From: Leptolyngbyaceae cyanobacterium HOT.MB2.61
GTDB lineage: Bacteria > Cyanobacteriota > Cyanobacteriia > Leptolyngbyales > Leptolyngbyaceae
NCBI GenBank assembly: GCA_023511615.1
Contig: JAIMBL010000022.1
Location: forward strand, 1 to 36,289
DNA: 36,289 nt
Direction of reading: 5' to 3'
The notes beneath the pieces are model-generated. The model was not told the DNA's origin. It saw only the letters and a list, made by a program, of their open reading frames with translations, and ran no database searches. Shown here piece after piece: positions 3,140 through 25,549 of the stretch. The translations under genes were made by a program, and so were the position numbers. Numbering within the stretch: the first letter of the stretch is position 1; every line of letters begins with the position of its first letter.

Positions 3140-4654
3140 ATGGTAGACATTCAACCTGTTCAAGTCATTGGTGGAGGATTAGCTGGTACTGAGGCAGCGT
3201 GGCAAATTGCCCAGGCGGGGATTCCAGTCATTCTCTATGAAATGCGTCCGCAGCGGTTAAGCCCGGCGCACCATAGTGAGCATCTGGCAGAGTTGGTGTG
3301 CAGTAATTCTTTTGGGGCGCAGTCCAGCGATCGCGCATCGGGTCTTCTCCATGAAGAGCTACGGCGCCTGGGCTCGATCATCATTCGCAAAGCAGACGAA
3401 CATCAGGTTCCAGCCGGAGGGGCTTTGGCGGTTGATCGGGCTATTTTCAGCCAGGATTTAACCGAAACGCTGACCCAGCACCCCCTCATCGATCTGCGCC
3501 GAGAGGAAATGGAGCAAATTCCAGCCGAAGGAATCGTTGTACTGACCACCGGACCCTTGACCAGCCCTGCCTTAGCGGAGGATCTCCGCCATTTTACTGG
3601 CCTGGAATACATGAGCTTTTTCGATGCTGCCAGTCCTATCGTGGTGGGCGAGTCGATTAATTTCGATATTGCCTTTCTCGCCTCCCGGTACGATCGCGGT
3701 GAAGCCGCATACCTCAACTGCCCTCTGAATAAGGCACAATACCTCCATTTCTGGCGGGAGTTATGCAATGCCGAACAGGCAGAACTGAAGGATTTTGAAC
3801 GGGAGACAGCAAAATTTTTTGAGGGCTGCCTGCCCATTGAAGAAATGGCCCGTCGCGGTGAAGATACTATGCGCTATGGCCCTCTGAAGCCCGTGGGAAT
3901 TTTTGACTCTCGACTGGGGAATCACCAGGATCCTGAAAATCGTTCAAAACGCCCCTATGCAGTGGTGCAGCTACGGCAAGAAGACCGGGCGGGTCAACTC
4001 TGGAATATGGTTGGCTTTCAGACCAATCTGCGTTGGAGCGAGCAAAAGCGAGTCTTTCGTCTGATTCCTGGCCTGGAAGAGGCTGAATTTGTCCGCATGG
4101 GTGTTATGCACCGTAACACCTTTATCAATGCGCCCGAACTGCTGTACCCAACCTTACAGTTTAAGAAGCGCCTGACTTTGCTGGCAGCCGGGCAACTGGT
4201 CGGCACTGAAGGTTACACTGCGGCGACGGCTGGCGGCTGGCTGGCTGGTACCAACGCGGCTCGCCTTGCACAGGGGCAATCTCCCATCGTTTTGCCTCCA
4301 ACCACAATGATCGGAGCCCTGCTCGACTTCATCAGTTCTGCATCCCCAAAACACTTTCAGCCCATGCCGCCTAATTTTGGCATTCTGCCAGAACTGCCCC
4401 AGCGAATTCGCAACAAGCAGGAACGCTATGGCCTATATCGCGATCGCGCCCTCACCGATCTGACAAACTGGCTGGCGAAGTCAGGAGCCAGAAGTCGGGA
4501 GTCAGAGGTTAAGAGTCGGGAGTTAGAGGTAGGAGTGGGTAGTCGGGAGTCAGAGGTTAGGAGTCAGGAGTGGAAAGGCGAAAGGGGTGCTTCATCGCGG
4601 TCACTGTCCACTTCTTATACCGCTTTGGGCTGTAGCATCCCCGACTATAAGTGA
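3140..4654 (+). CDS. trmFO: TrmFO, folate/FAD-dependent tRNA U54 methyltransferase
   Basis: Methylenetetrahydrofolate--tRNA-(uracil-5-)-methyltransferase, which makes T54 in the T-loop of tRNA using 5,10-methylene-THF and FADH2. The N-terminal FAD site is [10 protein letters not shown], followed by the family block LVCSNSFG near residue 53. A second conserved Cys lies in YLNCPLNK, and the C-terminal FAD-binding region contains [20 protein letters not shown]. The start ATG follows AAGG at a good distance. Cyanobacterial TrmFO proteins usually stop soon after the segment ending [13 protein letters not shown]. Here about 55 extra residues follow, rich in Ser, Arg, Glu and Val and encoded by a short tandem repeat (SRESEV, SRELEV, SRESEV). 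This tail is probably a repeat-driven read-through. It overlaps the convergent small gene by 98 bp. Confidence 0.96.
4480..4572 (+). repeat. Short tandem repeats inside the trmFO 3' end
   Basis: Degenerate units of the type AGTCGGGAGTCAGAGGTTA, with shorter variants, repeat through the end of trmFO. They keep the frame open and encode low-complexity residues. Confidence 0.8.
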
Positions 4655-4796
4655 CCTCCTGCCCACCTGAGGAGGTAAACTGCACACACCATTGCCGCTG
4701 GAGATGTTGCCAGTAAACAAAGGCTGTACCCGCTGCCACTAGACTGATGCCTGCTGCGATCGCAATCAGTTTCTTTGTGAGGTTCAATGATTTCAT
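4557..4796 (-). CDS. Small membrane-anchored or secreted protein
   Basis: A 79-residue product that I cannot assign to a family. It begins MKSLNLTKK, followed by a hydrophobic segment (about residues 10-28, [19 protein letters not shown]). This fits a signal anchor or uncleaved signal peptide with a short exported domain. Two Cys (in WCVQF and RGCYS) could form a disulfide outside the membrane. The last 25 or so residues are encoded opposite the repeat tail of trmFO and look unrelated to the ordered part, so the original stop may have been lost. It is convergent with trmFO. The coding case rests on the Lys-rich start, the hydrophobic helix and the ordered Cys region. Confidence 0.5.
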
Positions 4797-4864
4797 GGAT
4801 CAATCATGCCCAATAGCACTAGCATCTCACTGGTTATCTCATTAGTGCCAGAGAAAGTCATTCT

Positions 4865-4987
4865 GGCTCTCCTGAGAGTTTAGTGATAAACATCGCTTAT
4901 CACCGAAACAAAATCAATATTCCAGGGATTTTGTTTTAGATGAAATAGTAGCGTATGCTATCGTTTTACCGGCAAGCCAAGAGAACC
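4865..4987 (+). repeat. Family A miniature element (123 bp)
   Basis: A full-length copy flanked by the perfect 8-bp direct repeat GTCATTCT (4857-4864 and 4988-4995). The ends are GGCTCTCCTGAGAG and, on the other strand, GGTTCTCTTGGCTT. Inside are three hairpins: a GTGATAA...TTATCAC stem, an AAACAAAATC/GATTTTGTTT stem, and a GATGAAA...TTTTACC stem. No ORF is present. Confidence 0.88.
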
Positions 4988-5149
4988 GTCATTCTCTTGA
5001 AGAATAGCCTATTTAGCGTAGGTGGCGGGCAGTAACATTAGAGCAATTTTCACTTGATTAAACCACACCACCTCCGACTCCCCACTTCCCATCTCGACTG
5101 GGGTTTATTTGTCCGAAAATGGCTGTAAATCTGGCTATTTGGATGAGCC

Positions 5150-5192
5150 CCCACTTACCCGTCCACTCATCTACTCATCCACCCATCCCCAT
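5150..5192 (+). repeat. Short tandem repeat tract
   Basis: Degenerate CCACTCATCTACTCATC-type units lie in the 4797-5650 spacer. The same units, in either orientation, occur near 7383-7436 and 14058-14080. Confidence 0.5.
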
Positions 5193-5199
5193 CACCTTC

Positions 5200-5343
5200 T
5201 AAGTAGGTAGACATCATTAATGACATCATTAATTAGAAGAAGGAATTAGAAGAAGGAGGAGTGGGGGCGTTGCCCCCAGGCAGGGGGTTCCACCCCCTCC
5301 ACCCCCAAAACCATCTTTAATTTAATTGCACCCAGCTACTTAC
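5200..5343 (+). repeat. Family C miniature element
   Basis: About 144 bp with inverted termini: TAAGTAGGTAGACAT at the left, GCACCCAGCTACTTA at the right. The core contains two GC-rich hairpins (GGGGGCGTTGCCCCC and AGGGGGTTCCACCCCCT). A second copy is at 26183-26291. This copy has a short extra duplication of ACATCATTAATG near its left end. Confidence 0.8.
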
Positions 5344-5478
5344 CAATTCTCGATTTTGGATTTGCGATTTTGAATTGACAGACACTAAACCCTGAGAGGG
5401 TTCTAGTCCCTTCATTTGTAGCCTTACTTCGAAGAATTGGTACTAACTGTTGCGAATTCCGTTTAAGTTTGGTACGAC

Positions 5479-5601
5479 GTTTCTTCCGGCTTGCCGGTGA
5501 AAGAGTAGCGTAAGCGACTCTTTCATCTAAAACAGAATCCTTGGAATATTGATTTTGTTTCGGTAATAAGCGTCGCTTATCACCAAACTCTCAGGAGAGC
5601 C
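5479..5601 (-). repeat. Family A miniature element (123 bp), inverted
   Basis: A full-length copy in the opposite orientation to the one at 4865-4987, flanked by the perfect direct repeat GGTACGAC (5471-5478 and 5602-5609). The GATAAGCG-type palindrome and the CTCTTTCA stem are well preserved. Confidence 0.88.
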
Positions 5602-5616
5602 GGTACGACTATGGCT

Positions 5617-5635
5617 GAATGGCACTGAAATAAGC
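5617..5635 (-). repeat. Solo end of family F element
   Basis: GAATGGCACTGAAATAAGC is identical to 18038-18056 and nearly identical to the terminus of the full family F element at 35130-35288. It lies about 15 bp past the stop codon of the FHA-reductase gene. Confidence 0.6.
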
Positions 5636-5650
5636 TCATAACCCACTTTT

Positions 5651-7165
5651 CTAAGCTTCGATCGCCAACCGATTCACTGGATAAGCTACACACGCCAGTG
5701 CATAACCCGCCTGCTGATCTGTTTTGGTCAATGCGGTTGGTTGGGTATCGTAGCGGACATTTCCCCGCACAACCCGCACCTTACAGGCACCACAGGCACC
5801 AACCCGGCAGGCATGACGGATTTCGATACCTTGCTGCTCAGCAACTTCCAGAATTGAAGCACTACCATCCGCCTCCACACTCCGTTCAGATTTTAGGAAA
5901 TGAATTTCAGGAGTCCCTGTTTCAGATTCAGAGGAGGAATTGTCTGAATGGGGTCCTTTACCGTTACTGGTAATAACCGTAATCGGTTCTGGTTGCGAGA
6001 TGGAAGATAGCGTGGCTCCTCCCTGAAAAAATTTCGACTTTCTGCGACCAAAGCTTTCTTCTTTGTAGTTCTGCATCGGGAATTGCATTGCTTCTAGGGA
6101 CGAGCGAATGTTTTGCATGAACCCTGCTGGACCGCAAACGTAAACGACTCGCTCCAGAAGATCCGGTGCGACCAGTTGCAGCATGGATTCGGAAACTCGC
6201 CCCGTCAACCCCATCCACGATCGCCCCATAGACTGTTGCGTTACAGTCACTGCCAGATGGAAATTGGGCATCTGGGTGGCGATCGCTTCTAACTCAGCCC
6301 GAAAGATAATGTCTTCCAGTGTGCGGGCACTGTGGAGAAAGATAATGTCGCAGTTTGCCAGAGTATCCTGAACCCAACGAGTCATGGACATCATGGGTGT
6401 GATGCCGCTTCCGGCTGAGATCAGCAACATTTTGGGAGGTAAATCGGGTAAACAGGTAAAGTGTCCCAGTGGACCGCCAATGAACTTGACGCGATCACCC
6501 TCCTTGAGATAGTCGTGTAGCCAGTTAGAAACCAGTCCTGGAGGCAAGTCTGGCTGTTCACCTGGACTGGGTACCCGCTTCACCGTCAGGCTGATGTGAT
6601 AAGGGCGGGAGGGAGACGAAGAAATGGAATAGGAACGGATTACAGGCTTACCATCAATTTGCACTTCCAGGTTGACAAACTGCCCTGGCAAATACCGAAA
6701 CAACACCGGCGGATCGGCAACAAAATAAAACGTTTTTACATCCCGTGTCTCATCAACGATGCGGCAACAGCGGCAGAGCAAATCTTCCTGTGCCCAGTGT
6801 TTTTCGGGAAAACAAAGAGACTCAGAAACCGAGGACTCCAGAGAGCGCGCAGCCACTTCCTCCACGTACAAAAAGGTCTCTCCAAGTTGCAGCAAATCAC
6901 CGGGGCGAAGCTGGCATTTGTCGTTTACTGGAACACCTTTGCCATTGAGAAGGGAACCCGAAGTACTCCCAATATCAATGAAGTAGTAATTACCATCAAT
7001 ACAAATAATGCGTCCATGAATACGACTCACCTCTGGACTTGGTAGAACCAGATCGCAGGTAGAACTTCGTCCAATCACCCATTCCGTCTGTCCGGGATAG
7101 GTTTGTTGCAGATGATGATGTTGAAATTGCTGCTGTTCGAAGTTAACAGATTTCAGTGTCAACAT
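5651..7165 (-). CDS. FHA domain-flavin reductase-2Fe-2S ferredoxin fusion
   Basis: A 504-residue three-part protein. Residues about 5-105 form an FHA phosphothreonine-binding domain with the conserved GRS (G32-R33-S34), SRIHG (S47-H50) and LLNG motifs. Residues about 130-375 form a ferredoxin-NADP-reductase-like module with the flavin motif RSYS and the nucleotide motif GSGITPMMS. The last 95 or so residues form a plant-type 2Fe-2S ferredoxin with CRVGACGAC and a final Cys about 30 residues on. It should move electrons between NAD(P)H, flavin and the 2Fe-2S centre, with the FHA domain docking it to a phosphorylated partner. The start is set at 7165 because AAGGAGGT sits seven bases upstream. 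A longer frame begins 17 codons earlier, in a miniature element. It is the last gene of the kinase/membrane Fe-S protein unit. The exact electron donor and acceptor are unknown. Confidence 0.93.
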   Translation of the reverse strand: MLTLKSVNFEQQQFQHHHLQQTYPGQTEWVIGRSSTCDLVLPSPEVSRIHGRIICIDGNYYFIDIGSTSGSLLNGKGVPVNDKCQLRPGDLLQLGETFLYVEEVAARSLESSVSESLCFPEKHWAQEDLLCRCCRIVDETRDVKTFYFVADPPVLFRYLPGQFVNLEVQIDGKPVIRSYSISSSPSRPYHISLTVKRVPSPGEQPDLPPGLVSNWLHDYLKEGDRVKFIGGPLGHFTCLPDLPPKMLLISAGSGITPMMSMTRWVQDTLANCDIIFLHSARTLEDIIFRAELEAIATQMPNFHLAVTVTQQSMGRSWMGLTGRVSESMLQLVAPDLLERVVYVCGPAGFMQNIRSSLEAMQFPMQNYKEESFGRRKSKFFQGGATLSSISQPEPITVITSNGKGPHSDNSSSESETGTPEIHFLKSERSVEADGSASILEVAEQQGIEIRHACRVGACGACKVRVVRGNVRYDTQPTALTKTDQQAGYALACVAYPVNRLAIEA

Positions 7166-7201
7166 GCGTTTAACCTCCTTGGTTGGGTAGCCGGTACCTG
7201 G

Positions 7202-7314
7202 TATAGCTATAGCCACCAGGCTTAGGACGGGGTGCAGGGGTGGAACCCTGGCTGGGAGCTTGCCCCCACACCCCTCTTAAACCCAGTGTCCTGAGCAACC
7301 TGGCGACAGCTATA
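7202..7314 (+). repeat. Family B miniature element (about 113 bp)
   Basis: The termini TATAGCTATAGCCA and GGCGACAGCTATA form imperfect inverted repeats flanked by TA, the pattern left by TA-targeting (IS630/Tc1-like) transposition. It sits in the intercistronic gap between the membrane Fe-S gene and the FHA-reductase gene. Other copies are at 17110-17225, 19934-20047 and 34694-34808. Confidence 0.82.
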
Positions 7315-7382
7315 TCAGGGTGATGGAGTAAAGATCAGTTGTTAGTTGTTGGTTGTCAGTTGTTAGGGAGGGGTGAGGGGTA

Positions 7383-7436
7383 GATGGGTGGATGAGTGGT
7401 GGTATACCTATCCATCCACTCATCTCTGCTCATCCA
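7383..7436 (+). repeat. Short tandem repeat tract
   Basis: GATGGGTGGATGAGTGG and its inverted form (CCATCCACTCATC) fold back on each other. The tract overlaps the last two codons and the stop of the membrane Fe-S gene. Confidence 0.5.
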
Positions 7437-9133
7437 GTGGTGGCTTTTCGAGCAGGTTTGGCGATGGTTGTTGCTACGGTTGAGGTATCGGAGTTGTGAT
7501 TCGTTGCCTGAGGAGACTGGGCTGCTACTAAAACTTCGGGTTTTGTAGCGGCGATCGCTTCAATCATGGCAAAATGGTCAGAGTCCTTAAGCTGCAAATC
7601 TTGCCGCAATTTCCTACAAAACTCAAAGCTGCCAGAGACATCGGTGGTTTTCTGTTCCAATAAATCCAGTACAACTCCTGTGTAGGTTTGCATCCGCATT
7701 TGTTCAGAAACTCCTTGCATCACTTTCACCAGGGTATAGATTTCATCGGGTGTGAGATCATCCAGGTCGCGCCCTCCCAGTAAGTTAGAGTCGAGTGGCA
7801 ATTTGTGTAATTGTTGCCGCAGGCTGACTGCCATACTTTCACGCTCATACTGGGCACGGGTGCGTTTAAGAGTGCGATACAGCCAGATTGAACCCACCAA
7901 AACAATCAGGGCATTGAAGGCGAGGAGGGGATAATAGGGCAACCGATTGAGGGAAGGACGGGCACCGTAGGAAAAGAAAGTCCAGAATGATGCCCCTGTA
8001 AATAGGGTAAACACAAGATGTTGGGATTGCTCTTTAGACACGGGCCGACCGCGCCAGACAACAAAGGTACGGCAGAGCTTTTCCAGAATGAGCCCAATAG
8101 CGAGCGTAATGGCGATTAAAACACTAAAGGTGATGTAGACCGCAATCGCTTTGGGAATTGGGATGGCATGACCATAAATGTAGAAACCAGTGTCCATCAC
8201 CTTGGCAATCTGGTCGTCTTCGTGAGTCCAGGCCCCGGTAAAGTAATAGTCCCAGTTACCAGCGTAGAGGTAATAATACAGGTAGAAAGCAATCACCATG
8301 CCCAGGTAACCGTACTGAACAAGCCGCCGACCGGGTTTCTTGAACTCAGTCCAGTAGGTTTTTTCGGCGTCAATGTCAAAACAGGCTGCTTTACAGGCTA
8401 CACAGGCGCTTTGTTCCCTGCCCGTTTTAGGATCGACGGTGCGGCACATGGACTGAGTAATAGCTGGCTTCTGTTCTCGATAGGTCTGGCTGCCCAGGAG
8501 CGATCGCGGGCCAGTATAAACCTGTTGCACGGGAGCCATAGGACAGAAGTAATGACACCAGCTTTTACCCGCATACAGATAACCAATCAAAATCGCACAA
8601 ATGATCGTACCAATCAAAAAACTTCCCAGGGCAACGCGATCGGAATTGACATATAGAATGCGAATGCCCAACCCTAAGACAAATAAACCAAACTGAAAAT
8701 AAAGATGATTTCGCCCCAGCCAGGAATTTTCCGTAATCCTGACCACATCCCAACGGGTTTCACCAGTCACCGGATCAACAATTTTACGTCGTCGCTGGAT
8801 ACCCAGTGCCCGTGGAAGTTGGGAGAGAAAGGAGAGTGGGCAAATCCTCCGCCAAAACTCATGCCCAAAAACCAGCAGAATAAAAATGGCAGCGGGCACA
8901 ATCATCGCCCACCACATGAGCGCAGTCATGGAAAAGGGCGTTTGCGGTAGACAGGACTCGCGGATCTGAATACAACGATCCGGATCGACCCGAAATGGGC
9001 TTGCCAGATTGTCGGGTTGGGTCCAGGCGGGGGTAATTGGGTCGTAGAAGAGTGAAGCAATTAACAGAAACCAACCGAGGGTCAATAGCCATCGAACCCG
9101 GTGCATGGTTTTCTCTGAAACTTTGTGCAGCAT
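7430..9133 (-). CDS. Polytopic membrane 4Fe-4S protein (NosR/NapH-like)
   Basis: A 567-residue integral membrane protein with about seven or eight predicted helices (for example residues 14-30, 70-92, 145-165, 172-192, 275-295, 330-352 and one near 400). Between helices lie cysteine motifs typical of membrane ferredoxins of the NosR/NapH type: WCHYFCPMAP near residue 190 and, about 45 residues on, CVACKAAC with an extra Cys upstream. The final 130 or so residues are soluble. Such proteins pass electrons across or along the membrane. The start at 9133 is supported by AAGGTG six bases upstream; a second ATG lies eight codons in. It follows the kinase gene by 81 bp and precedes the FHA-reductase gene, which suggests the three act together, with this protein as the membrane anchor or electron conduit. 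The redox partner is not known. Confidence 0.85.
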   Translation of the reverse strand: MLHKVSEKTMHRVRWLLTLGWFLLIASLFYDPITPAWTQPDNLASPFRVDPDRCIQIRESCLPQTPFSMTALMWWAMIVPAAIFILLVFGHEFWRRICPLSFLSQLPRALGIQRRRKIVDPVTGETRWDVVRITENSWLGRNHLYFQFGLFVLGLGIRILYVNSDRVALGSFLIGTIICAILIGYLYAGKSWCHYFCPMAPVQQVYTGPRSLLGSQTYREQKPAITQSMCRTVDPKTGREQSACVACKAACFDIDAEKTYWTEFKKPGRRLVQYGYLGMVIAFYLYYYLYAGNWDYYFTGAWTHEDDQIAKVMDTGFYIYGHAIPIPKAIAVYITFSVLIAITLAIGLILEKLCRTFVVWRGRPVSKEQSQHLVFTLFTGASFWTFFSYGARPSLNRLPYYPLLAFNALIVLVGSIWLYRTLKRTRAQYERESMAVSLRQQLHKLPLDSNLLGGRDLDDLTPDEIYTLVKVMQGVSEQMRMQTYTGVVLDLLEQKTTDVSGSFEFCRKLRQDLQLKDSDHFAMIEAIAATKPEVLVAAQSPQATNHNSDTSTVATTIAKPARKATTG

Positions 9134-9214
9134 AGGGTCACCTTCTGGTCTTTGGTTATTGGTTACGGATTGTCAGTCATTCGTAATTGGATTGGCCTAG
9201 TAGAAAGCCGCCGA

Positions 9215-11134
9215 CTATTGGGTAGTTACACTCCGCAGCCCGACCGGGTTCATCTGCCAAACGCGCAACCGTTGATTGGAACTCAAGCTCACGAGGTAAT
9301 GGTGATTGGGACTGAGGGCAATATCTAAATTGCGGCCCAGGGTTCCTGCTTCCCTGGGAACCAGGCGTCCTCTTTTTCGTGTCCAGATTCGAATACTGCC
9401 GTTATCGTGGACGGTCACAAGATTTTGATGACTGAGGGAGGCCGCTATGGAATTAGCGGACTTTTCAGGGAACACCAGGGCCAATTCTTCCTGCTTCAGA
9501 TCCCACGCAAATCCCCGGTCTTTGCCAAAGCTATACAGGGTATGATCATCAGCAATCTGTAAACCTACGATCGCATCAGTATGTCCGGCAAAGGTGCGAT
9601 GCAATTGTCCAGAGCGAAGATTCCAGACCTGAAGCTGGCGATCGCTACTGGCACTGATGAGACTGTCGGCGGTTGATCCATAAATCACAGCCGTGACTTC
9701 GGCATCAGGAATCTTCAGAGTTTGTATTCGGATTCCGGTTTGCATATCCCATCGCCGCAGGCTGCCATCCTTACAACCCGTGACGAGCGATCGCTGATCT
9801 GGACTGATGGCAATGGCTGTGATGGGGTGCTGATGTCCCTGAAAAGCCAGTAAAGATTGCCCAGAGTCCAGGTCCCAGACTCGAATCGTGCCATCCTCAC
9901 TCCCGCTTGCCAGCCATTTTCCATCTCGACTCGTCGCTAAAGAGGTCACAGTAGCCCGGTGGCCGTGAAGGGATTTAAGTGCCTTTCCAGCAGGTAAAGA
10001 CCACAGGCGCAGAATATGATCAGCTCCTGCCGTAATCAGCATGCGATTGTCGGGGGTGATCACCATCCGTTTCACTCCCGATTGAATGGGCAGATCTCGC
10101 ACCATCGTTAAGCGAATCTCAGATTGATAGAATTGCTTCCCAAATTGAGTAAGCAGGGTCCTAATATGCTTGCCATGAGCATGAATATACTGCCCACCAA
10201 CGACACCCAGCAGCAAAGCCGCAGCCACTGGAATAAACGTTTGCTGCACAACCGTTCGCCATCCAGAAATTGACTCCAGGTGCCAGGAACGTTTTGCGCT
10301 GGTTAACGTCTGGAGGTCTGTCAGAACGTCGGCGGGGCGCTGGTAGCGATCGCTAAATTTCACACGCACCAGTCCATCTAGAATCTCAATCAGTTTGGGA
10401 TCAACTGATTTTTCATCTAAAAAACGATGCCAGTCGATTTCTCCGGAGATTAAGTCCTGCTTAAATTCACGGGGATGAACCCCTGTCAGCATATGAATCA
10501 CTAGCATGCCCAAGGCATACAGGTCACTGTTTAATTGGGACATGCCCAGGTGTTGCTCATCGGGCATATAGCCTGGAGTGCCGATTGCAAGCGACAAATC
10601 ATCACTATCAGGCTTTGTGCTGGACTCATCCTCTGGCAGAAGGCAAGCAGCTCCAAAATCAATCAAAACCAGCCGACTGTCTTGTCGCCGCCGGATCAGA
10701 TTACTGGGTTTAATATCCCGGTGAATGACTCGCTGGGAATAGAGATAGTCCAGTACGGGGAGCAGTTCTAGCAGCAATTTGATAGCAGCGTCGGACGTTA
10801 AACGCTGCTTGCGGGCAAACCATCGGCCTAAGTTCTCACCATCAATATATTCCTGCACTAAATAAGGCTGCTCCTGCTCATGGCAATAGGCATACAGGGT
10901 TGGAATTTGAGTGTGATGTTGTCCCAAACGCTCTAACACAGAAGCTTCTGTTTCAAACAAACGTTGGGCAGACTCATGCGAAATAGTACTATTCGATGAC
11001 AGTTTGAGACATTTGACAACACACAATGGATGACGGGGAAGATACTTGTCGCGAGCCAGATAGGTTTCGCTAAACCCGCCCGCTCCTAGCTTTTCCAGAA
11101 TCAGGTAGCGTCCGGTTAATAGTTGCCCAATCAT
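9215..11134 (-). CDS. Ser/Thr protein kinase with C-terminal WD40 propeller
   Basis: A 639-residue Hanks-type kinase. The kinase domain (about residues 8-275) keeps all the key parts: Gly loop GAGGFSE, the ATP-binding K41, HRDIKPSN with catalytic D140, and the DFG Asp near 159. It should therefore be active. One hydrophobic stretch near residue 300 (PVAAALLLGVVGG) probably crosses the membrane. It is followed by seven WD40 repeats ending LRLW, IRVW, LRRW, LQVW, FAW, IRIW and LRVW, enough for one seven-bladed propeller. That places the kinase in the cytoplasm and the propeller outside. Kinase-WD40 fusions are common in filamentous cyanobacteria. It is the first gene of a three-gene minus-strand unit whose last product has an FHA domain, the natural reader of its phosphothreonine product. 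The start follows GGAAGG. Confidence 0.95.
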   Translation of the reverse strand: MIGQLLTGRYLILEKLGAGGFSETYLARDKYLPRHPLCVVKCLKLSSNSTISHESAQRLFETEASVLERLGQHHTQIPTLYAYCHEQEQPYLVQEYIDGENLGRWFARKQRLTSDAAIKLLLELLPVLDYLYSQRVIHRDIKPSNLIRRRQDSRLVLIDFGAACLLPEDESSTKPDSDDLSLAIGTPGYMPDEQHLGMSQLNSDLYALGMLVIHMLTGVHPREFKQDLISGEIDWHRFLDEKSVDPKLIEILDGLVRVKFSDRYQRPADVLTDLQTLTSAKRSWHLESISGWRTVVQQTFIPVAAALLLGVVGGQYIHAHGKHIRTLLTQFGKQFYQSEIRLTMVRDLPIQSGVKRMVITPDNRMLITAGADHILRLWSLPAGKALKSLHGHRATVTSLATSRDGKWLASGSEDGTIRVWDLDSGQSLLAFQGHQHPITAIAISPDQRSLVTGCKDGSLRRWDMQTGIRIQTLKIPDAEVTAVIYGSTADSLISASSDRQLQVWNLRSGQLHRTFAGHTDAIVGLQIADDHTLYSFGKDRGFAWDLKQEELALVFPEKSANSIAASLSHQNLVTVHDNGSIRIWTRKRGRLVPREAGTLGRNLDIALSPNHHYLVSLSSNQRLRVWQMNPVGLRSVTTQ

Positions 11135-12195
11135 ACAATTCAGCCTTCCATGGGGTTAGACCTGCACGGGTTCTACCGCCTGGATAGCGGCTTTCGTGAT
11201 TGAATGACCAATCCAATTGATGAAAGCCCCTAGGCTAATACCAATCGTTAGTCAATCAGATCCCAATGCGTCAGGATTTTCATGCGAAATCTGTCTCTGC
11301 ACCAGAAACAACTGCAAAATGACATGAGTTGCAATTGCGCTCACTCCTTCACACCCGGAAACAGGGCTTTTCTCATCAATTCGCGGAGTCGGGGAGCAAA
11401 TCAAACTAGGTGGTAGATGAAACTTTGACTACCCTGGTTCACGAACAACAGGGGTAGACCTGATTTAGATGTCTCTGTAGATTATAGTGACCAAAAGCGG
11501 CGTTGTCCACGCCTTATGACAGAACTAACCGGAACAAGTGAGGCTAGATTAACTGGAACTTGCCGTATGATGAAGTTCTAATTAATTTTCAGCCTCTTGG
11601 GGTCCAGTTAGACTGGCACAACATAGCAGATACTGTGACAATCCATAAACAAGCATACACCAGGTTTTATGGTGAGAGTAGATGGATAAACATAAAATTG
11701 CGATTTAACCCAAATTGCGATTTAACCCGCTTTTCGAATGACTGGAGGAGTGCGTGCTGCAAAAGAGTCAGCGAGGTGACAAAAGTAACTGAAGTGATTT
11801 GTGATACGATGTCGCAGACACATTGGAGGAGAGGTATCTTTGTCATTCTGTAGAAAAAATGGTGTTGCTGAAAAGCAGTATGAATCGAAACGAGGTTTCG
11901 AGCATACGGCATCCATTTCATATCCGGATTCAGCAATCCCGAAAAAACTAAAGCAATGCAATGGATGCCTGTGGCATCTGGGGCATAGGACAGGGAAATA
12001 GGATGTAACGGGTACCAGAGCAATGCTGAATTGGAAAGACTGATTTGTGCTACTTCTAATTCTTCTCGAAGATCAACAACGTTGAAATCAAAATAGGAGT
12101 GCAGCTACCAGAGAGTAAGCAAATCGGTATCGAACTTGCAGAGTTCAAGATGCTGAAATAGATGGATCCATCTGAAACGCAAGGATACACTGAAG
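11135..12195 (+). other. Long spacer with one miniature element, no convincing gene
   Basis: About 1.06 kb between the divergent kinase and PAS genes. It presumably holds both promoters. Apart from the family D element at 11861-11940 I see no ordered gene. Short open frames near 11560-11853 and 11667-12023 start poorly, overlap on opposite strands and have no recognisable features. Confidence 0.6.
11861..11940 (-). repeat. Family D palindromic element (80 bp)
   Basis: The ends GGTGTTGCTGAA and TTCAGCAATCCC are inverted repeats, with a second internal stem around CGAAACGAGGTTTCG. It is flanked by near-identical octamers, GAAAAAAT and GAAAAAAC. Related copies are at 18317-18396, 19795-19874 and 33865-33944. 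Confidence 0.75.
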
Positions 12196-13881
12196 ATGGT
12201 TTTTACTTTCTGGGATATTCCTGGGATTCGGTCTAACAAGTCATTGGAAGTTCTGGAGCGATCGCTCTGTCCAATTTGTATTTACAGCGATCGAGGGCAA
12301 ACCGTTTATGCCAGTCAGAGTTTTCTGGAGTTGCTACAAGCCAAAGCTGAGGATGTTGGTTTCTTTGATTATTTCGCATCGGGATCTACCACCCTGGCAC
12401 TATTAACGAAGTTTTGGGAACGGGCTCTGCAAGGTGAAACCATTGAGTTTCTTTCTAAAACTAAAGACGCCTGGGAAGACATTGAATGTTCCCTCCAATT
12501 CAACCCGGATGCAAAGCTAATGTTTTTAACCGCTAAGAAACTTAACTCAGAGGGAGACACCCAGAAACTGATTGAGGAATACGATCGAGCTGTCTCCCTA
12601 TTTAACTGTGCCAGTCTGGCAACAGCTTTGACCAACCCCGATGGAATAGTGGTTCGGTGCAATCAAAAATTTCATGAACTCCTCGGAACCACTGGCGCTG
12701 AAACGCTTCACCTGGAAAAATTTGTTCATCCAGAGGATCGGCTGGTGGATGGAGATTTAAGGCAAAAATTGCTGGAGGGAGATATCAGTTCCTACACAAT
12801 CGAAAAACGATTAGTCTCCAAAAGCCAGGATGTTATTTGGGTTAATATTAGTGTTTCGCTGATTGATTTGCCTGCCTGCGTGAATGGTTATCGAAAATAT
12901 TTTGTTGTTCTCCTGGAGGACATCACAGAGAGCCGCAAAATTTACAATGCACTGGTCAGAACTGAAGAAAAATGGAAAGCGTTTGTCTTAAACAGCCCTT
13001 ATCTATTTATTCAGACCAGCAATACAGGACAGATTATTTATGCCAGCCCCATAGTTGAGAGCCTGTTAGGCTACAAGGAAGAGGAATTGTTGGGGCGGTA
13101 TGTGACTGAGTTCATCCATCCCAACAACTTCAATGAGTTTGAATTGGCGCTTCAGCTATGGGTCAGTAATGTTCAATCCAGGCAGTTGGGGATTGAATGC
13201 TGGTGGAAGACAAAGTCTGGTAAATGGGTATTTCTATACATCCAGGGACAACAGTTCCCCTCAGTATTAGAAATTGATGGAGTTGTTATTACCGGATACA
13301 ACATCACCGATCGCAAGTACCTGGAGGTTGAACTAAAAGCCAGCGAAGAACGATTTAAATCCCTGACATCCAATATTCCTGGGGCTGTCTTTCGCTGTGA
13401 TTCCACCTATACAATGCGGTTCATCAGTGATGGAATTGAAGAGATCACTGGGTATCCAGCTTCGGCTTTCGTCAATAACCAGAGACTTTCGTATCTGAGT
13501 ATTGTTCACCCCGATGACATTGGATTGATCAAAGATTCGTTGATTCAGTCAGTTTTAGACCGTTACCGCTGTTCCATTGAATACCGGATCATTCATGCCA
13601 ATGGTCAAATCCGTTGGGTATCAGAACGCAAACAGGGAGTATTTGACGACAGCGATAACTTACTCTGGTTAGGGGGCGTTTTGCTTGATATTAGTGATCG
13701 CAAACGCCTGGAAGAAGACCATCGGCGCAGCGAGGCGGAGCGCAAACGCCTGGAAGCAGAACTTCATCGTTGTGAAGCGATTAACCGCACCATGGCCCAG
13801 ATGATTCCTGGGTTAATCCACTCCAATTGTCTGGAATGCTTTCCCCCTCTTGCCTCCAGTAATGCTGGAATTGCTGATTGA
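12196..13881 (+). CDS. Multi-PAS sensor protein without an output domain
   Basis: A 561-residue soluble protein composed of PAS/PAC modules: a weak one at about 15-115, then clear ones at about 125-250 (ending VVLLEDITESRK), 255-375 (ending TGYNITDRKYLE) and 378-508 (ending GVLLDISDRKRLE). The last is followed by a charged helix, SEAERKRLEAELHR, which normally links to another PAS, GGDEF or histidine-kinase domain. Instead the frame ends about 30 residues later, just after AQMIPGLI, the kind of sequence that normally opens the next PAS domain. The protein may therefore be the N-terminal part of a once longer sensor. The stop lies six bases before a tandem 84-bp repeat. There is no strong ribosome binding site (AAGGA 12 bases upstream). 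Ligand and partner are unknown. Confidence 0.85.
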   Translation: MVFTFWDIPGIRSNKSLEVLERSLCPICIYSDRGQTVYASQSFLELLQAKAEDVGFFDYFASGSTTLALLTKFWERALQGETIEFLSKTKDAWEDIECSLQFNPDAKLMFLTAKKLNSEGDTQKLIEEYDRAVSLFNCASLATALTNPDGIVVRCNQKFHELLGTTGAETLHLEKFVHPEDRLVDGDLRQKLLEGDISSYTIEKRLVSKSQDVIWVNISVSLIDLPACVNGYRKYFVVLLEDITESRKIYNALVRTEEKWKAFVLNSPYLFIQTSNTGQIIYASPIVESLLGYKEEELLGRYVTEFIHPNNFNEFELALQLWVSNVQSRQLGIECWWKTKSGKWVFLYIQGQQFPSVLEIDGVVITGYNITDRKYLEVELKASEERFKSLTSNIPGAVFRCDSTYTMRFISDGIEEITGYPASAFVNNQRLSYLSIVHPDDIGLIKDSLIQSVLDRYRCSIEYRIIHANGQIRWVSERKQGVFDDSDNLLWLGGVLLDISDRKRLEEDHRRSEAERKRLEAELHRCEAINRTMAQMIPGLIHSNCLECFPPLASSNAGIAD

Positions 13882-13886
13882 TATAT

Positions 13887-14054
13887 AGCGATCCTATCTG
13901 GATTGTGAAAAGGGATTCCCCAGGAATTCTCTTCACAAAGCCCTTGCATTTCACAAATCGTTCAGGACTTAGCAATCCTATCTGGATTGTGAAGAAGGAT
14001 TCCGCAGGAAGCCTCTTCACACAGCTCTTCCATTTCACAAATCGTTCAGGAAGG
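13887..14054 (+). repeat. Tandem duplication, 2 x 84 bp, each with a hairpin
   Basis: The units 13887-13970 and 13971-14054 both begin AGCRATCCTATCTGGATTGT and end TTTCACAAATCGTTCAGGA, with about 85-90% identity by eye. Each contains an inverted repeat GTGAA...GGATTCC / GGAA...TTCAC that can fold into a long hairpin. The array starts six bases after the PAS gene stop. Confidence 0.88.
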
Positions 14055-14265
14055 CTACAGGTGGATGGGTGGATGAGTAACAGAGTAATGGAGCCATAAA
14101 ACTCTTAATCAGAACTCTGGATTGCTTCGCACAATCTTTCAATCAAACTATTCGGATCTAGAAAAGTTTAGGATAAAATGAATTCATTGCATTTGATTTC
14201 TTCAGGTGTGCCGAGCTACCTTATGAGTAGCAACTGATAATAAACCCTGTAATTATTTTCCTTAA

Positions 14266-15675
14266 ATGAGTCGTGAAGTTCCTGCCCTGGGTGTGAGTGA
14301 GGGGCTGGTTCAAGCCACCCTTCAGTCAGAAGTTGAGTCCGTGACTGAGCCATTCCGTCAGGAAGTGTTTTCTGAAGAAAATGCTGCTCTAGAAGATGAC
14401 TCGAAATTCCATGCCAACTTGCTGAACCAGGCTGTTCAGTTGCAACCCAAAGCTAAGGTTGCTTTAATTCGCGAATTGATTACTCAGCTTGAAACGAACC
14501 ATATTCAGACCATTTTAGAATTCGGGTTGCGAGAGATTGGCAATCGCCACCGTCGAGGTACCGTATCCACCTCGGTCGATCACAACACCCGACTGTTGCT
14601 GAAGAAAGATTACAGTTACCAGGACCGGGGACTGAGTGAACCAACCCAATACTACGTCTATCTGCGGCGGCGCAAACCAAAGCTTGATCGATACATTGGG
14701 GCATTGTTTTACGTTCCTCAAGGTTGCTTACTTTCCTATGGTCTGGACGGGGATGGGCGTATCATTTTTAACCCGCCACATAATATATTCCAATTACAGG
14801 ACTGTACCAATCCGGCTGTGACTCAAATTGTCCGCCTTGTTTCTCTGGAACCACCTCCGCCAGACTACACTTTCACCAAGCAACAGAATGATACTCCAGA
14901 AATTTACCTGAATGTGGAGTATCTGGATGCCAAGACTTACCAACCGATAATGAAACAGGTGTACCCTTTTCCAGCTTGTATGCATGAAGGCGGACCGCTC
15001 GATCGCTATCGCTGGGAAGTTTCACTTGTGCCGGGGGCGCCGAAGTCACCTGATTTCCATGAGTCTAACGTTCAACCTTCTCTAATTAGTCCCCCATTGA
15101 AGAGAGAGTTACCGGTGTTCCCAAATGAATTGAATCCATTGACTGCTGCAAATCAAGCATCTCCTGAGAAGACTGAGCCTGCTTTAAGTCGGCCTGGAGG
15201 AGCTCCTTCCCAGCCATCCCGGCACATTCTTGAGTTGCCAGCAACCAAATCTCTCATCTTTTATTTGTTGAATCGGGACGACTCAGACAGTGTTTTGAAG
15301 CGGATGCGTTTATGGGTGACCTGGAGTGAAAAAGCCATGCCCCAATCCAGATGGACTCTGGTTCAGAACGGGACAGTTTACACGTTGATGAATGCCCACT
15401 TCAAGCGGACTATTCTCAAGTTTTCTTTCGATCAGGGGACGGTGATATTGGAAAACTCACTGCCTGTTTTAGTGAAATGGTTCCATGATTTAAGCCTCGC
15501 CGTTTCTCAGGCTCAGAATCAGCGGCAGTACAGTACAGCTCAATTGAAGCTGGCCCACAGCCTTTTTGTCGATATGAGCCTTCCCCAAAAAGATCCAGTC
15601 GTTGTGTTGAAGAAACTGTTTGGGGTTGAGTTTACTGAAATTCCAGGCAATCAAAAGCCAGCAGCAAAGCACTAA
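14266..15675 (+). CDS. Conserved-looking unknown protein (469 aa)
   Basis: I do not recognise this family. The protein is soluble, without a signal peptide or membrane helix. A first part (residues about 45-235) includes ELITQLETNHIQTILEFGLREIGNRHRRG and an aromatic stretch TQYYVYLRRRKPKLDRYIGALFYVPQGCLLSYGLD. A Pro- and Ser-rich linker follows (about 255-325), then a C-terminal part with regularly spaced hydrophobic residues (about 325-460). This two-domain layout with a disordered linker argues for a real, expressed protein. The ATG has no clear Shine-Dalgarno sequence, and a poly-T/A-rich stretch precedes it. It is convergent with the TPR-like gene at 15882-16670, and nothing in the context points to a pathway. 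Confidence 0.8.
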   Translation: MSREVPALGVSEGLVQATLQSEVESVTEPFRQEVFSEENAALEDDSKFHANLLNQAVQLQPKAKVALIRELITQLETNHIQTILEFGLREIGNRHRRGTVSTSVDHNTRLLLKKDYSYQDRGLSEPTQYYVYLRRRKPKLDRYIGALFYVPQGCLLSYGLDGDGRIIFNPPHNIFQLQDCTNPAVTQIVRLVSLEPPPPDYTFTKQQNDTPEIYLNVEYLDAKTYQPIMKQVYPFPACMHEGGPLDRYRWEVSLVPGAPKSPDFHESNVQPSLISPPLKRELPVFPNELNPLTAANQASPEKTEPALSRPGGAPSQPSRHILELPATKSLIFYLLNRDDSDSVLKRMRLWVTWSEKAMPQSRWTLVQNGTVYTLMNAHFKRTILKFSFDQGTVILENSLPVLVKWFHDLSLAVSQAQNQRQYSTAQLKLAHSLFVDMSLPQKDPVVVLKKLFGVEFTEIPGNQKPAAKH

Positions 15676-17225: not shown

Positions 17226-17918
17226 TTAGACCAGATTAAAGTCGGTTGGTGTAAAGATTGCCAGATTGGCCTGTCCGAGAGGGCCTCGCTGGTTATCCAG
17301 GTTGGCCAGGACGCTGATATTGCCACCATCACCAAGGTCTTGAGAATAGACCAGACGAGTCACTCCTAAGGTTGAGTTGAAGTAGATAAACACTCCTTCG
17401 TCAGAAGTGATATTTGGATTATTGGCGATCGCACGAGCCGCCGCCCCCGCAGCAGGGAAGGCATCCAGCAACACCAGAGCATTACCATCAGCCGCAATTT
17501 GAGAAGTTACCCCTTGCTGGAATACGAAGTTTTCAATCCCCAGATCCTGTCCGGCAAAGGTAAATCGGTCTTCCCCAAAGGTGAAGTCTGTAATCACATC
17601 GGGACGATTCAAGACATTGATACCTGTCTGCCCTGCGGGTAGGGGTGCGCCATTAGCGAAGGGATCACCTGCTAACAAAAACTGATCGAACCCTGGACCG
17701 CCAGTTAACCTATCAACTCCAGGTCCTCCCAATAACACATCATTACCCGCACCGGCATCAATTGAATCATTACCAGCTCCTCCATCAAAGGATTCATTCT
17801 TAATTCCTCCAAAAAATACGTCATCGCCAGCGACCTTAACTGCGGCTTTGGGAGGTAAATCTTGATTAAAGCTAGCCACGAAATCACTGCTAAAGGTTGG
17901 TCTTGGGCCTTTGATCAT
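17226..17918 (-). CDS. RTX-type calcium-binding protein, likely type I secretion cargo
   Basis: A 230-residue protein with a short array of RTX nonapeptides (residues about 45-75: NDSIDAGAGNDVLLGGPGVD and LTGGPGFDQF). These bind Ca2+ outside the cell. No N-terminal signal peptide is present, as expected for type I export with an uncleaved C-terminal signal. The region after the repeats (VITDFTFGEDRFTFAG and onwards) resembles the beta-rich C-terminal part common in cyanobacterial RTX proteins. The start is placed at 17918 because AAGGA sits seven bases upstream of that ATG; a 31-codon extension is open but has no such site. The gene points away from the exporter genes at 18987-24598, about 1 kb away, which likely serve it. 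Its stop touches a miniature element. Function beyond Ca2+ binding is unknown. Confidence 0.87.
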   Translation of the reverse strand: MIKGPRPTFSSDFVASFNQDLPPKAAVKVAGDDVFFGGIKNESFDGGAGNDSIDAGAGNDVLLGGPGVDRLTGGPGFDQFLLAGDPFANGAPLPAGQTGINVLNRPDVITDFTFGEDRFTFAGQDLGIENFVFQQGVTSQIAADGNALVLLDAFPAAGAAARAIANNPNITSDEGVFIYFNSTLGVTRLVYSQDLGDGGNISVLANLDNQRGPLGQANLAIFTPTDFNLV

Positions 17919-18201
17919 GATGACTTCCTTGTTACTCGTTGAACTGTATATGATGAGCTGCAATCTGTCTATCCCACCTGCGGGAAACTGTTCATTTGCA
18001 GATGGGTTCACTTCCCTTTTTGCAGGGAACTTTACATGAATGGCACTGAAATAAGCGGAAACTCAATTCTGCTGTGTTTGTTCGTAGAGACGTTCCAGAA
18101 CACCCTTAGAAAGCCTGTTCACAAGTCTAGAACATTACCAGGCTGGTGAAACGTCCAGCTAAGTTTTGGAAACCTGTAAGCGTTAACCGCTCTAACAGAC
18201 T

Positions 18202-18302
18202 AGGTTCCGCCAGGAAAATTTTGACGGCTCGCAGACCCTCAAAATTTAACCCCCATCAACTTCCTGGGTATTCGCTAACGTCAAATTCAATTTGACAGAG
18301 TA
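18202..18302 (-). repeat. Family E repeat (about 101 bp)
   Basis: An inverted copy of 26292-26394 with about 80-85% identity by eye. One end is a near-palindrome (GTCAAATTCAATTTGACAG), the other contains CAGGAAAATTTTGACGG. Confidence 0.8.
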
Positions 18303-18316
18303 CTAGTAGATTTGCA

Positions 18317-18396
18317 GACGTTGCTGAATCGGGGGATGAAAAAGGCACCAGATGCTTGAAATTTCGTTCCAATTCATCTTACTTTTCAGCAACGCC
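18317..18396 (+). repeat. Family D palindromic element (80 bp)
   Basis: The ends GACGTTGCTGAA and TTCAGCAACGCC are inverted repeats. Flanks GATTTGCA and GCTTTGCA differ at one base, consistent with an 8-bp target duplication. Confidence 0.8.
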
Positions 18397-18891
18397 GCTT
18401 TGCACCTGCGACTTTATAGAGAGTACAACATCACCCTGTACCAACCTAAAGAACCAGAAGAATTTAGCCAACCTGAAATCCTCAGAACTTTTTTGAGAAA
18501 TTACTAGATTTTTATACACACAAAATTGCGTGTAGAAACAAAATCGAATTGAGCTTAAAACCTTACGGGGTAAGCCTTCGACAAGGAAGGACTTAGATTC
18601 ATCTGTGGACGAGTTTTTTCTAGTGTCGCATTTTTTACCAGAAGGTCGCTGTTTGCTAATTAGAACCAGTCTTATCCTGATGGTTCTAAATAAGTAAAAA
18701 TCAATAAAATCCTGATTTCCTGGTAAATGAATGAATAACCGAATTGGGAGTTGCTGAATCGCAGGATGAGTTGAAAGCTGCAACTTACTCGGCTCTAAAT
18801 CCATCTCAGAAGCAGCAATGATCTAAATTCACCGGTGTGGGCGATCACGTCCTCCCTCAACTGGAACAATCTACAAACTGGTTCTAATTAA

Positions 18892-18919
18892 TTGGATGCC
18901 TGAAGGATTGTGGTATAGT
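18892..18919 (+). promoter_or_regulatory. Candidate sigma-70-type promoter for the exporter operon
   Basis: TTGGAT (18892-18897), then a 16-base spacer, then TATAGT (18914-18919). Transcription would begin near 18926, giving a leader of about 60 bases before the parvulin start, which has AGGAAG at good spacing. Only the match to consensus supports this. Confidence 0.4.
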
Positions 18920-18986
18920 CACAGCATAGGGTGCTCCCAAACCATATCTACAAAGCTTTTCTGGCTCAGGGCTTAGGAAGACTACC

Positions 18987-19781
18987 ATGAGTAGCTATCT
19001 CAAAATTGGAAATCGCCTTTTAGATGGCGATCAGATTATTTCTGCGCTTGTGCAATATCAGCTTCTGGAAACATTGGTAGGGCAGGTAATTCTGGACGAT
19101 GTTATTAAGGATATTCAGTTAACACAGCAGGAAGTATTTCAGCTTTTGACTGGAATTACCAATCCCTCAATGCCAGATGACTTTGAAGGATTTGTTATTC
19201 AATGGTGCCAGGACAGAAGTGTGACACCAGAGTACTTCAATACTGTGATCATGCGCGGATTCCGGATCAAAAAATTCAAGCAGCTTTACTTTGCTGAACA
19301 GGTCGAATCGGAATTTCTTCGGGCTAAATCGGATCTAGATCAGGTGGAGTATTCACTCATTCAGCTGACTGATTTGACATTAGCACAGGAATTGTATTTT
19401 CAACTGCGAGACGATGGAGCCGATTTTGCTCAGTTGGCTCAGCAATATTCTTTAGGAAGTGAACGGCACACGGGAGGAAGAGTTGGTCCCGTATCCATGT
19501 CTACGATTCCGGCCGATGTGGCGACTCTCTTCTCTAGTGAGCAGGTAGGAACGGTCTATGGTCCAATTCCGATAGAAGATGTGTTCTGGATTGTTCGATT
19601 AGAGCATTTTTCAGCCGCACGCCTAACGGAATCTACCCGGTTTAATTTGATCAATCGAATGTATAACCAGTGGCTTCAGGCACAGGTCAAAAAAGTGTTG
19701 AGTACACCTGGCATGATTGCCGTACAGCCAGATTCAATAGAGCAATCTCGACAAGATGAACAGCCCTTAATGACGCAATAG
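18987..19781 (+). CDS. Parvulin-type peptidyl-prolyl isomerase of a secretion locus
   Basis: A 264-residue protein with an N-terminal helical part (about 1-110, SurA-like in layout) and a parvulin/rotamase domain at about 115-215. That domain carries family signatures FAQLAQQYSLG, GGRVGPV and the region VGTVYGPI. No signal peptide is seen, so it should act in the cytoplasm. In cyanobacteria such foldases are often encoded next to peptidase-like ABC exporters and HlyD adaptors, where they may keep cargo export-competent. Here the exporter gene follows 290 bp later; the gap holds one family D and one family B element, so the two were probably closer in the past. Substrates are inferred (the RTX proteins), not shown. 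The start is supported by AGGAAG. Confidence 0.85.
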   Translation: MSSYLKIGNRLLDGDQIISALVQYQLLETLVGQVILDDVIKDIQLTQQEVFQLLTGITNPSMPDDFEGFVIQWCQDRSVTPEYFNTVIMRGFRIKKFKQLYFAEQVESEFLRAKSDLDQVEYSLIQLTDLTLAQELYFQLRDDGADFAQLAQQYSLGSERHTGGRVGPVSMSTIPADVATLFSSEQVGTVYGPIPIEDVFWIVRLEHFSAARLTESTRFNLINRMYNQWLQAQVKKVLSTPGMIAVQPDSIEQSRQDEQPLMTQ

Positions 19782-19794
19782 TAAAAGGATGATG

Positions 19795-19874
19795 GGCGTT
19801 GCCGAAAAGCAGGGTGAATTGAAACGAAGTTTCAAGCATCCAGCACTTTTTTCATCTATAGATTCAGCAACACC
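19795..19874 (-). repeat. Family D palindromic element (80 bp)
   Basis: The ends GGCGTTGCCGAA and TTCAGCAACACC are inverted repeats. Flanks GGATGATG and GGATGACA match at six of eight bases. It begins 13 bp after the parvulin stop. Confidence 0.75.
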
Positions 19875-19933
19875 GGATGACATTGGATGATGACTGACTG
19901 ATGGGTGCAAGTCTTATGCCCTTGTGAGGGATC

Positions 19934-20047
19934 TATAGCGGTAGTCATTGTAGTTAGGACAGGGTGCAGGGGGAAAACCCTGGCTAGGGGCGAAACCTCC
20001 ACTTCCTCTCTAATTCCAATGTCCTAACGCACCTGCATAGAGCTATA
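19934..20047 (+). repeat. Family B miniature element, diverged
   Basis: Termini TATAGCGGTAGTCA and GCATAGAGCTATA; the core AGGACAGGGTGCAGGGGG matches the other copies. It ends 23 bp before the ABC exporter ATG and so forms most of that gene's upstream region. Confidence 0.75.
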
Positions 20048-20070
20048 TCAATTGAATTTAGGGAATTGAT

Positions 20071-23109: not shown

Positions 23110-23122
23110 ATGGAGAAAGATT

Positions 23123-25514: not shown

Positions 25515-25549
25515 TGAAGTTGAAACGCAGTAATTACAAGGAGTTTCCG

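Follow-up and report, generated by a model that had tools for sequence, protein, structure and literature searches.

A membrane Fe-S protein and an FHA-linked reductase form a conserved cyanobacterial gene pair beside a type I secretion exporter

FHA domains classically bind phosphothreonine, and switches made of a kinase and an FHA protein include PpkA-Fha1 of the type VI secretion system, PknB/PknG-GarA and OdhI. Ser/Thr kinases and FHA domains are plentiful in cyanobacteria; to our knowledge, few of their circuits are known there. Here, we analyzed a window (the whole stretch of DNA under study, 36,289 nucleotides) in which three genes encode a Ser/Thr kinase with a WD40 propeller (KIN), an Fe-S membrane protein with eight transmembrane (TM) helices (MEM) and a fusion of FHA domain, reductase and 2Fe-2S ferredoxin (RED). 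In analogy to the above switches, a writer kinase and an FHA reader may be united in one system. Unlike in those cases, a redox enzyme would do the reading, with the tail of a membrane Fe-S protein as its candidate ligand. A literature search for combinations of FHA reductase, NosR and WD40 kinase in cyanobacteria yielded no relevant publication, and we found no published description of a KIN-MEM-RED system.

Three genes and their products

The ORFs of KIN, MEM and RED were all found on the minus strand (Table 1), overlapped on the opposite strand by small ORFs only, and the three genes named in a preliminary description of the locus are thus real. A consensus scan of positions 4600-12300 revealed one promoter-like site on the minus strand, located upstream of KIN (11/12 matches). 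Since a Shine-Dalgarno-like AAGGAGG lies just 5' of the ATG at 7165, this start appeared likelier for RED than the GTG at 7216.

Table 1 Features of the locus (positions are those of the window)
Feature	Residues or length	Positions	Strand	Basis or remark
KIN	639 aa	9215-11134	minus	
KIN kinase domain	12-264	11101-10343	minus	Pfam Pkinase
KIN single TM helix	315-332	10192-10139	minus	AlphaFold helix
KIN WD40 propeller	342-628	10111-9251	minus	Pfam WD40 and AlphaFold
MEM	567 aa	7430-9133	minus	
MEM conserved residues	C54, C61	8974-8951	minus	invariant or nearly so (alignments of 71, 22 and 42 homologues)
MEM conserved residues	H91, C98, C193, C197, C230, C244, C247, C251	8842-8381	minus	invariant or nearly so (same alignments)
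MEM disordered C-terminal tail	538-567	7433-7522	minus	pLDDT <50
MEM tail threonine motif, candidate phosphothreonine docking site	T552-VAT-T556-IAK-P560	7480-7454	minus	motif statistics
RED from GTG	521 aa	5651-7216	minus	
RED from likelier ATG	504 aa	5651-7165	minus	
RED FHA domain		7081-6881	minus	Pfam
RED FAD/NAD reductase		about 6772-6047	minus	Pfam
RED 2Fe-2S ferredoxin domain		5893-5678	minus	Pfam
Candidate single operon promoter	TGGACA-17-TATAAT	11481-11509	minus	consensus scan only
PAS-repeat protein		12196-13881	plus	divergent neighbour, kept at most close relatives' loci
P14, no family assigned	469 aa	14266-15675	plus	conserved neighbour
RTX (haemolysin-type Ca-binding) protein		17226-18011	minus	Pfam PF00353, 6e-9
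PPIC-type peptidylprolyl isomerase		18987-19781	plus	Pfam; exporter cluster
T1SS peptidase-domain ABC transporter (HlyB-like)		20071-23109	plus	
HlyD-family T1SS adaptor		23099-24598	plus	TIGR01843, 230 bits, over cut-off
CHRD and RTX exoprotein, probable T1SS substrate		27791-29188	plus	Pfam CHRD, 1.2e-5

KIN matched the Pfam families Pkinase (2.6e-34) and WD40 (1.5e-40), and its AlphaFold (AF2) model (pLDDT 81) exhibited 28 propeller strands forming seven blades of four, confirming the proposed Ser/Thr kinase with a seven-bladed propeller. Since there is only one TM helix, the propeller is probably extracytoplasmic, as had been proposed as well. The catalytic Lys, HRD Asp and DFG Asp of Hanks-type kinases (K41, D140, D159) were at least 95% conserved among 30 KIN sequences; the homologues L108 and L123 seem to carry LIYQDLKLNHL at the HRD position, so that their activity is uncertain. 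The best prokaryotic PDB match of the propeller was 5yzv (TMt 0.86), whose record describes a WD40 domain from a prokaryotic protein of Thermomonospora; we take this protein to be PkwA. Like KIN, the PkwA-type Ser/Thr kinases of Thermomonospora combine a kinase with a WD40 propeller, but KIN differs in being part of a conserved operon with MEM and RED.

The predicted fusion in RED was recovered as the Pfam domains FHA, FAD_binding_6, NAD_binding_1 and Fer2, with the FAD motif RxYS, the NAD motif GSGITP and the four Fer2 cysteines present. RED shares the FAD-NAD-Fer2 module with reductases of the NqrF/Hcr/PaaE/GbcB type, and NqrF chains were among its PDB matches. Unlike these enzymes, it has an N-terminal FHA domain and scored below every listed NCBIfam reductase cut-off (e.g., GbcB, 342 bits, cut-off 500; Hcr PRK10684, 192 bits, cut-off 383). 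Across 62 RED sequences, including some with only about 36-40% identity, the phosphothreonine-binding residues of the FHA domain (GR...S..H...N; G49, R50, S64, H67, N91) were conserved to at least 95%. Judged by alignment, RED thus keeps the complete set.

The AF2 model of MEM (pLDDT 78) showed eight long helices. For comparison, we used the features of the NosR/NapH/RdhC (CX3CP) family given in PMC5928378. MEM resembles this family in being polytopic and in having an intact CX3CP motif (C193-HYF-C197-P) and further 4Fe-4S cysteines on one side. Its only Pfam signal, Fer4_5 (PF12801), was at 21.1 bits below the cut-off of 22; homologues exceeded it with 22.8, 25.0 and 29.2 bits. Unlike in the family, the first CX3CP is reduced to C98-P (WRRICP, with a single Cys; all 22 aligned homologues keep C98 and P99), so that one of the two CX3CP motifs was found. 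Where NosR and NapH have two full 4Fe-4S motifs, MEM has only C230 plus CX2CX3C at 244-251. The periplasmic FMN-binding domain of NosR and RdhC was absent from its Pfam matches, its predicted N-terminal loop being only about 35 aa, and its partner is a soluble FHA reductase. The suggested NosR/NapH-like character therefore held for one CX3CP motif, but not for the other site or for the FMN domain. Seven cysteines on the cytoplasmic side are invariant. Profile and fold searches of the PDB with MEM returned no significant match, and the cluster types and electron path are thus read from the Cys pattern. In other lineages, MEM carries its own FHA and/or cNMP domains by fusion.

Conservation of the gene neighbourhood

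Of the 62 RED loci in other cyanobacterial genomes, 56 had MEM as the immediate upstream neighbour of RED, with intergenic gaps mostly below 150 bp, and a KIN homologue preceded 27 of these 56 pairs. Gene order and orientation were shared by several families and by separate replicons. Among 291 genomes, the 56 bearing RED all fell within the 127 bearing MEM (kinship uncorrected). The linkage of KIN, MEM and RED is not a local accident: MEM and RED are a conserved gene pair, which a transmembrane Ser/Thr sensor kinase joins in many genomes. A chance operon was rejected on the MEM-RED adjacency. Since KIN adjoins only about half of the pairs, the writer may be a kinase other than KIN or may operate in trans. 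The MEM-RED pairs of Scytonema, Hassallia and Rhizonema have a CHASE2-kinase gene downstream in place of the upstream KIN. Outside the cyanobacteria, plasmids of R. etli and A. fabrum carry a MEM-FHA gene with a gene for a RED-type reductase behind it, and a cytochrome c peroxidase gene is oriented divergently from them (domains checked in R. etli).

A threonine motif in the MEM tail and models for its role

In unfused pairs, the C-terminus of MEM is a disordered tail in which a threonine motif is conserved. Scored as T-[VIL]-[AVI]-[RK], a pattern spotted before counting and counted in related sequences, it occurred in 44 of 64 (69%) unfused RED-linked MEM proteins versus 2% of 771 other protein C-termini. 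These 64 tails contained 72 motifs, while 1.7 were expected from shuffles. Fused RED-linked MEM tails yielded 7 motifs in 12,719 aa (3.9 expected), fused RED-less tails 3 in 15,949 aa (4.6 expected) and unfused RED-less tails one in 878 aa; no enrichment was found in RED, KIN, fused MEMs or RED-less MEMs. Together with the shuffles and the 771 unrelated proteins, these sets ruled out general composition as the source of the motif. It was kept even in tails that could not be aligned, in up to several copies; the strict pattern matched in only 11 of 22 MEMs below 50% identity. Searches of the FHA-cNMP linker and the C-terminus of fused MEMs revealed nothing consistent. Since the tail motif is missing from fused MEM-RED pairs, docking in them must differ.

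The site logos of mycobacterial PknA/PknB (acidic before Thr, hydrophobic at +3, basic at +4; PMC7164672) are of a similar type, but the MEM motif is hydrophobic at +1/+2 and basic at +3. We set this likeness aside as evidence, since the register differs.

A conserved threonine tag that the FHA domain of RED could grip suggests an undescribed phosphorylation switch that turns electron flow on. In our best model, to which we give an even chance, the genes encode a conserved cell-envelope redox switch. The propeller of KIN would read an outside signal and activate the kinase, which would phosphorylate the MEM tail at T552/T556. RED would then dock there through its FHA domain, and electrons would pass from NAD(P)H via FAD and 2Fe-2S into the Fe-S centre that MEM has on its cytoplasmic side. 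The coupling of writer, reader and redox machinery had been proposed before; it gains support from the MEM-RED adjacency, the FHA residues, the tail motif, which fits the writer/reader idea, and a different sensor kinase (CHASE2) beside the same pair, while the adjacency of KIN at about half of the pairs weakens it. By sequence, a writer, a reader, a candidate ligand and an effector come together in one operon, which would exemplify a membrane Fe-S protein whose electron flow is switched by phosphorylation.

Alternatively, MEM-RED might be a redox sensor whose Fe-S/flavin state controls the kinase or type I secretion, electron flow not being the output. The fusion of MEM homologues to cNMP-binding and FHA domains and the PAS protein, sensor kinases and sigma factor-like genes nearby are in agreement with this assumption. 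However, RED has all parts of a reductase, its FAD, NAD and 2Fe-2S motifs being conserved, and a whole NAD(P)H reductase would be unusual in a pure sensor; the cytochrome c peroxidase gene beside the Rhizobium/Agrobacterium pair also argues against it, and we regard a purely signalling role as unlikely. We judge it just as improbable that RED always feeds MEM, with FHA domain and tail as a fixed scaffold and KIN regulating another part of the island, for instance T1SS export or the RTX proteins. Constant supply would account for the wider spread of MEM-RED than of KIN adjacency and for the tail motif at L069, L110 and L125, loci without an adjacent same-strand kinase, but not readily for phosphothreonine-binding residues kept opposite a threonine-centred motif, nor for kinases recurring beside MEM-RED in two architectures.

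Type I secretion surroundings

HlyB, HlyD and a probable RTX substrate are encoded near the module, which thus lies in a type I secretion island. The top match of the HlyB-like exporter was found within 20 kb of MEM/RED in 18 of 20 genomes, and in genome G143 each of three contigs with a RED copy also had a linked exporter match. CHRD genes adjoin KIN-MEM-RED in other genomes, and CHRD/RTX exoprotein genes are often present in the island. The module therefore sits beside one particular T1SS exporter, often together with CHRD/RTX exoprotein genes. WD40 kinases and FHA proteins are numerous in cyanobacteria, and yet it is very improbable that ordinary signalling and redox genes lie together here by accident, without a joint function. 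This view is contradicted by the MEM-RED adjacency, by the gene order and orientation conserved among families and replicons, by the short gaps, by the T1SS linkage and by the phylogenetic profile.

In the redox-switch model, MEM would hand its electrons to a membrane or periplasmic acceptor, which would serve the CHRD/RTX proteins after their export or metal/peroxide chemistry of the envelope. The full version, in which a kinase-written, FHA-read switch gates electrons into MEM for the reduction of an envelope acceptor for T1SS CHRD/RTX proteins, such as in metal or peroxide reactions at the cell surface, is tentative and rather unlikely; if true, such phosphorylation-gated transmembrane electron export would be an undescribed principle. 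In Trichodesmium, CHRD-domain haemolysin-type Ca-binding proteins are regulated by iron and dust according to the accessible part of PMC5776111, which mentions no link of the MEM-RED type for these CHRD/RTX exoproteins. The model might thus offer a first functional hint for T1SS islands with proteins of this class.

The T1SS, CHRD and RTX surroundings were absent from the preliminary description. On L. boryana plasmids, a PPIC-type isomerase gene occupies the same position beside HlyB.

Domains and conserved residues of the three proteins

The AlphaFold model of the Ser/Thr kinase (KIN) placed a helix at residues 315-332 and 28 strands at 342-628, arranged as seven four-stranded blades, and a Thermomonospora WD40 domain (5yzv, TMt 0.86) was among its best Foldseek matches. 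Together with the Pfam matches, this bore out the seven-bladed WD40 kinase of the preliminary description, and the proposed fusion of FHA, flavin reductase and 2Fe-2S ferredoxin was likewise recovered in the reductase protein (RED). The sole minus-strand promoter-like site within 4600-12300 lies upstream of KIN.

Features of the window
Feature	Position	Strand	Description
KIN-MEM-RED ORFs	5651-11134	minus	three ORFs occupying the whole interval
KIN	9215-11134	minus	Pfam kinase domain (2.6e-34) and WD40 repeats
MEM	7430-9133	minus	eight-helix membrane protein; Fer4_5 match below threshold, no other match
RED	5651-7165 (ATG 7165 likelier start)	minus	FHA, FAD, NAD and Fer2 domains
PAS-repeat protein and P14 (469 aa)	12196-15675	divergent from KIN	kept alongside KIN in close relatives
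PPIase, HlyB-like peptidase-ABC exporter, HlyD, RTX protein, CHRD+RTX protein	17226-29188		on the far side of the divergent PAS/P14 gene pair

The RED start was preferred because AAGGAGG precedes it. Near-complementary stretches in the MEM-RED gap (7217-7429), e.g. ATGAGTGGATGGATAGG and CCACTCATCCACCCATC, could form a hairpin. RED retains the FAD motif, the NAD motif, the Fer2 cysteines and the phosphothreonine-binding FHA residues G49, R50, S64, H67 and N91. K41, D140 and D159 are retained in KIN; two homologues, seemingly L108 and L123 by their other motifs, have LIYQDLKLNHL at the HRD position. Across 71 sequences of the membrane protein (MEM), H91 and the seven cysteines C98, C193, C197, C230, C244, C247 and C251 never vary, whereas conservation of C54 and C61 is 99%. 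Visual inspection of hydropathy, charge and the model would put the seven invariant cysteines on the cytoplasmic side and C54/C61 within a periplasmic loop.

MEM had been described as NosR/NapH-like. Its polytopic build stands, but it does not show the two CX3CP motifs, FMN domain or double 4Fe-4S feature used as family criteria (PMC5928378). By these tests it falls outside NosR, NapH and RdhC, though it may work like them. RED scores under the cut-offs of the listed reductase families. Searches of open-access papers gave no description of the KIN, MEM and RED combination; built from known kinds of parts, it may well be new in function.

Linkage of MEM, RED and KIN across genomes

Loci were drawn from searches of relatives and of the class and then mapped. 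MEM lies directly upstream of RED at 56/62 RED loci, and KIN precedes 27 of these 56 pairs, about half. This set was partly collected by MEM similarity; its unbiased part, the loci collected through RED, shows the same pairing, some exceptions aside. The named set (52/53 RED loci with MEM upstream) was collected by MEM similarity and is hence not independent. All 56 RED genomes fall within the 127 MEM genomes (291 genomes, relatedness ignored). Three RED loci that lack MEM (L135-L137) have no Fer2 either.

In Scytonema, Hassallia and Rhizonema a MEM with additional fused domains comes first, followed by RED and then a kinase, which lies at most about 270 bp after RED (L196, L203) or about 1.4 kb away behind a small gene (L183, L186); the kinases scanned for domains (L183, L186, L196) carry a CHASE2 sensor. 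Near divergent MEM-RED copies (L104, L114, L116, L119, L120, L138), WD40 and kinase are encoded by separate genes. A sigma-70-type factor (L110:1626-2816, scanned) or its homologues (L112:9777-10982, L118:3005-4195) were seen immediately upstream of divergent pairs.

The MEM tail and a proposed phospho-switch

MEM is variable beyond residue ~500, with 538-567 predicted to be disordered, and in the window its tail terminates in HNSDTSTVATTIAKPARKATTG. Tails of unfused MEMs that have RED immediately after them carry T-[VIL]-[AVI]-[RK], as TLAKTIAKP in the KIN-linked clade, repeated DPTTVVSRR...DPTTVVARR... in L110, PRTVVRRP in L069 and RTVIRRE in L125. We counted 72 motifs in 64 such tails (mean 1.7, maximum 7 in 500 shuffles), the pattern having been picked after the tails were inspected and the sequences being related. 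The last 67 residues contain it in 44/64 MEMs versus 15/771 other proteins; among MEMs <50% identical, 11/22 match strictly and many of the rest have near variants. Fused MEMs showed no such enrichment, without RED (3 motifs in 15,949 aa versus 4.6 expected) or with it (7 in 12,719 aa versus 3.9), and neither did RED or KIN; unfused MEMs without RED had 1 in 878 aa. Many MEMs also have a motif-like four-mer within their structured core (34 such counts), so a match by itself does not make a site.

Of the models considered, a writer-reader-effector switch, whose parts are present, conserved and linked, has the best support: KIN would phosphorylate the MEM tail, RED would dock there via its FHA domain, and NAD(P)H electrons would pass into MEM. 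We infer the signal, the phosphorylation and docking steps, the flow of electrons and the acceptor. The acceptor is the model's weakest point; gene context offers exported CHRD/RTX proteins, envelope metals and peroxide as candidates.

Exporter island and fused relatives

Two L. boryana plasmids have the order CHRD-KIN-MEM-RED with HlyD-HlyB-PPIase close by, and L113 has exporter, adaptor, MEM and RED in direct succession. In 18/20 genomes no more than 20 kb separates the best match to the window's exporter from MEM or RED (distances read off manually and then tested statistically, with a P value that is only indicative because of relatedness among the genomes), the exceptions being G001 (213 kb away) and G117 (different contig). 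Three contigs of G143 carry RED copies, each with a linked exporter match. CHRD genes occur within 30 kb in many of the 20, with stronger CHRD matches elsewhere.

Many MEM homologues reach 920-1150 aa; their C-terminal part holds a cNMP-binding domain and, in several, FHA as well. These fusions are widespread in cyanobacteria (L051:6025-9339, L057:4769-7618, L124:7641-10949); many lack an adjoining reductase, and we found no named function for them. On Rhizobium etli and Agrobacterium fabrum plasmids a reductase follows a MEM-FHA protein (38% identity), and genes for a cytochrome c peroxidase and a two-component system run divergently from the pair (L221:7654-14279, L222:7738-14011). The R. 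etli domains were confirmed as FAD/NAD/Fer2 without FHA for the reductase and as CCP_MauG for the peroxidase. FHA thus joins MEM both in cis, in these fusions, and in trans, in RED. On an R. leguminosarum plasmid (L223:7636-15138) a MEM homologue adjoins an RTX protein, a GMC oxidoreductase and a ferritin-like protein, and related loci occur on many Rhizobium plasmids.
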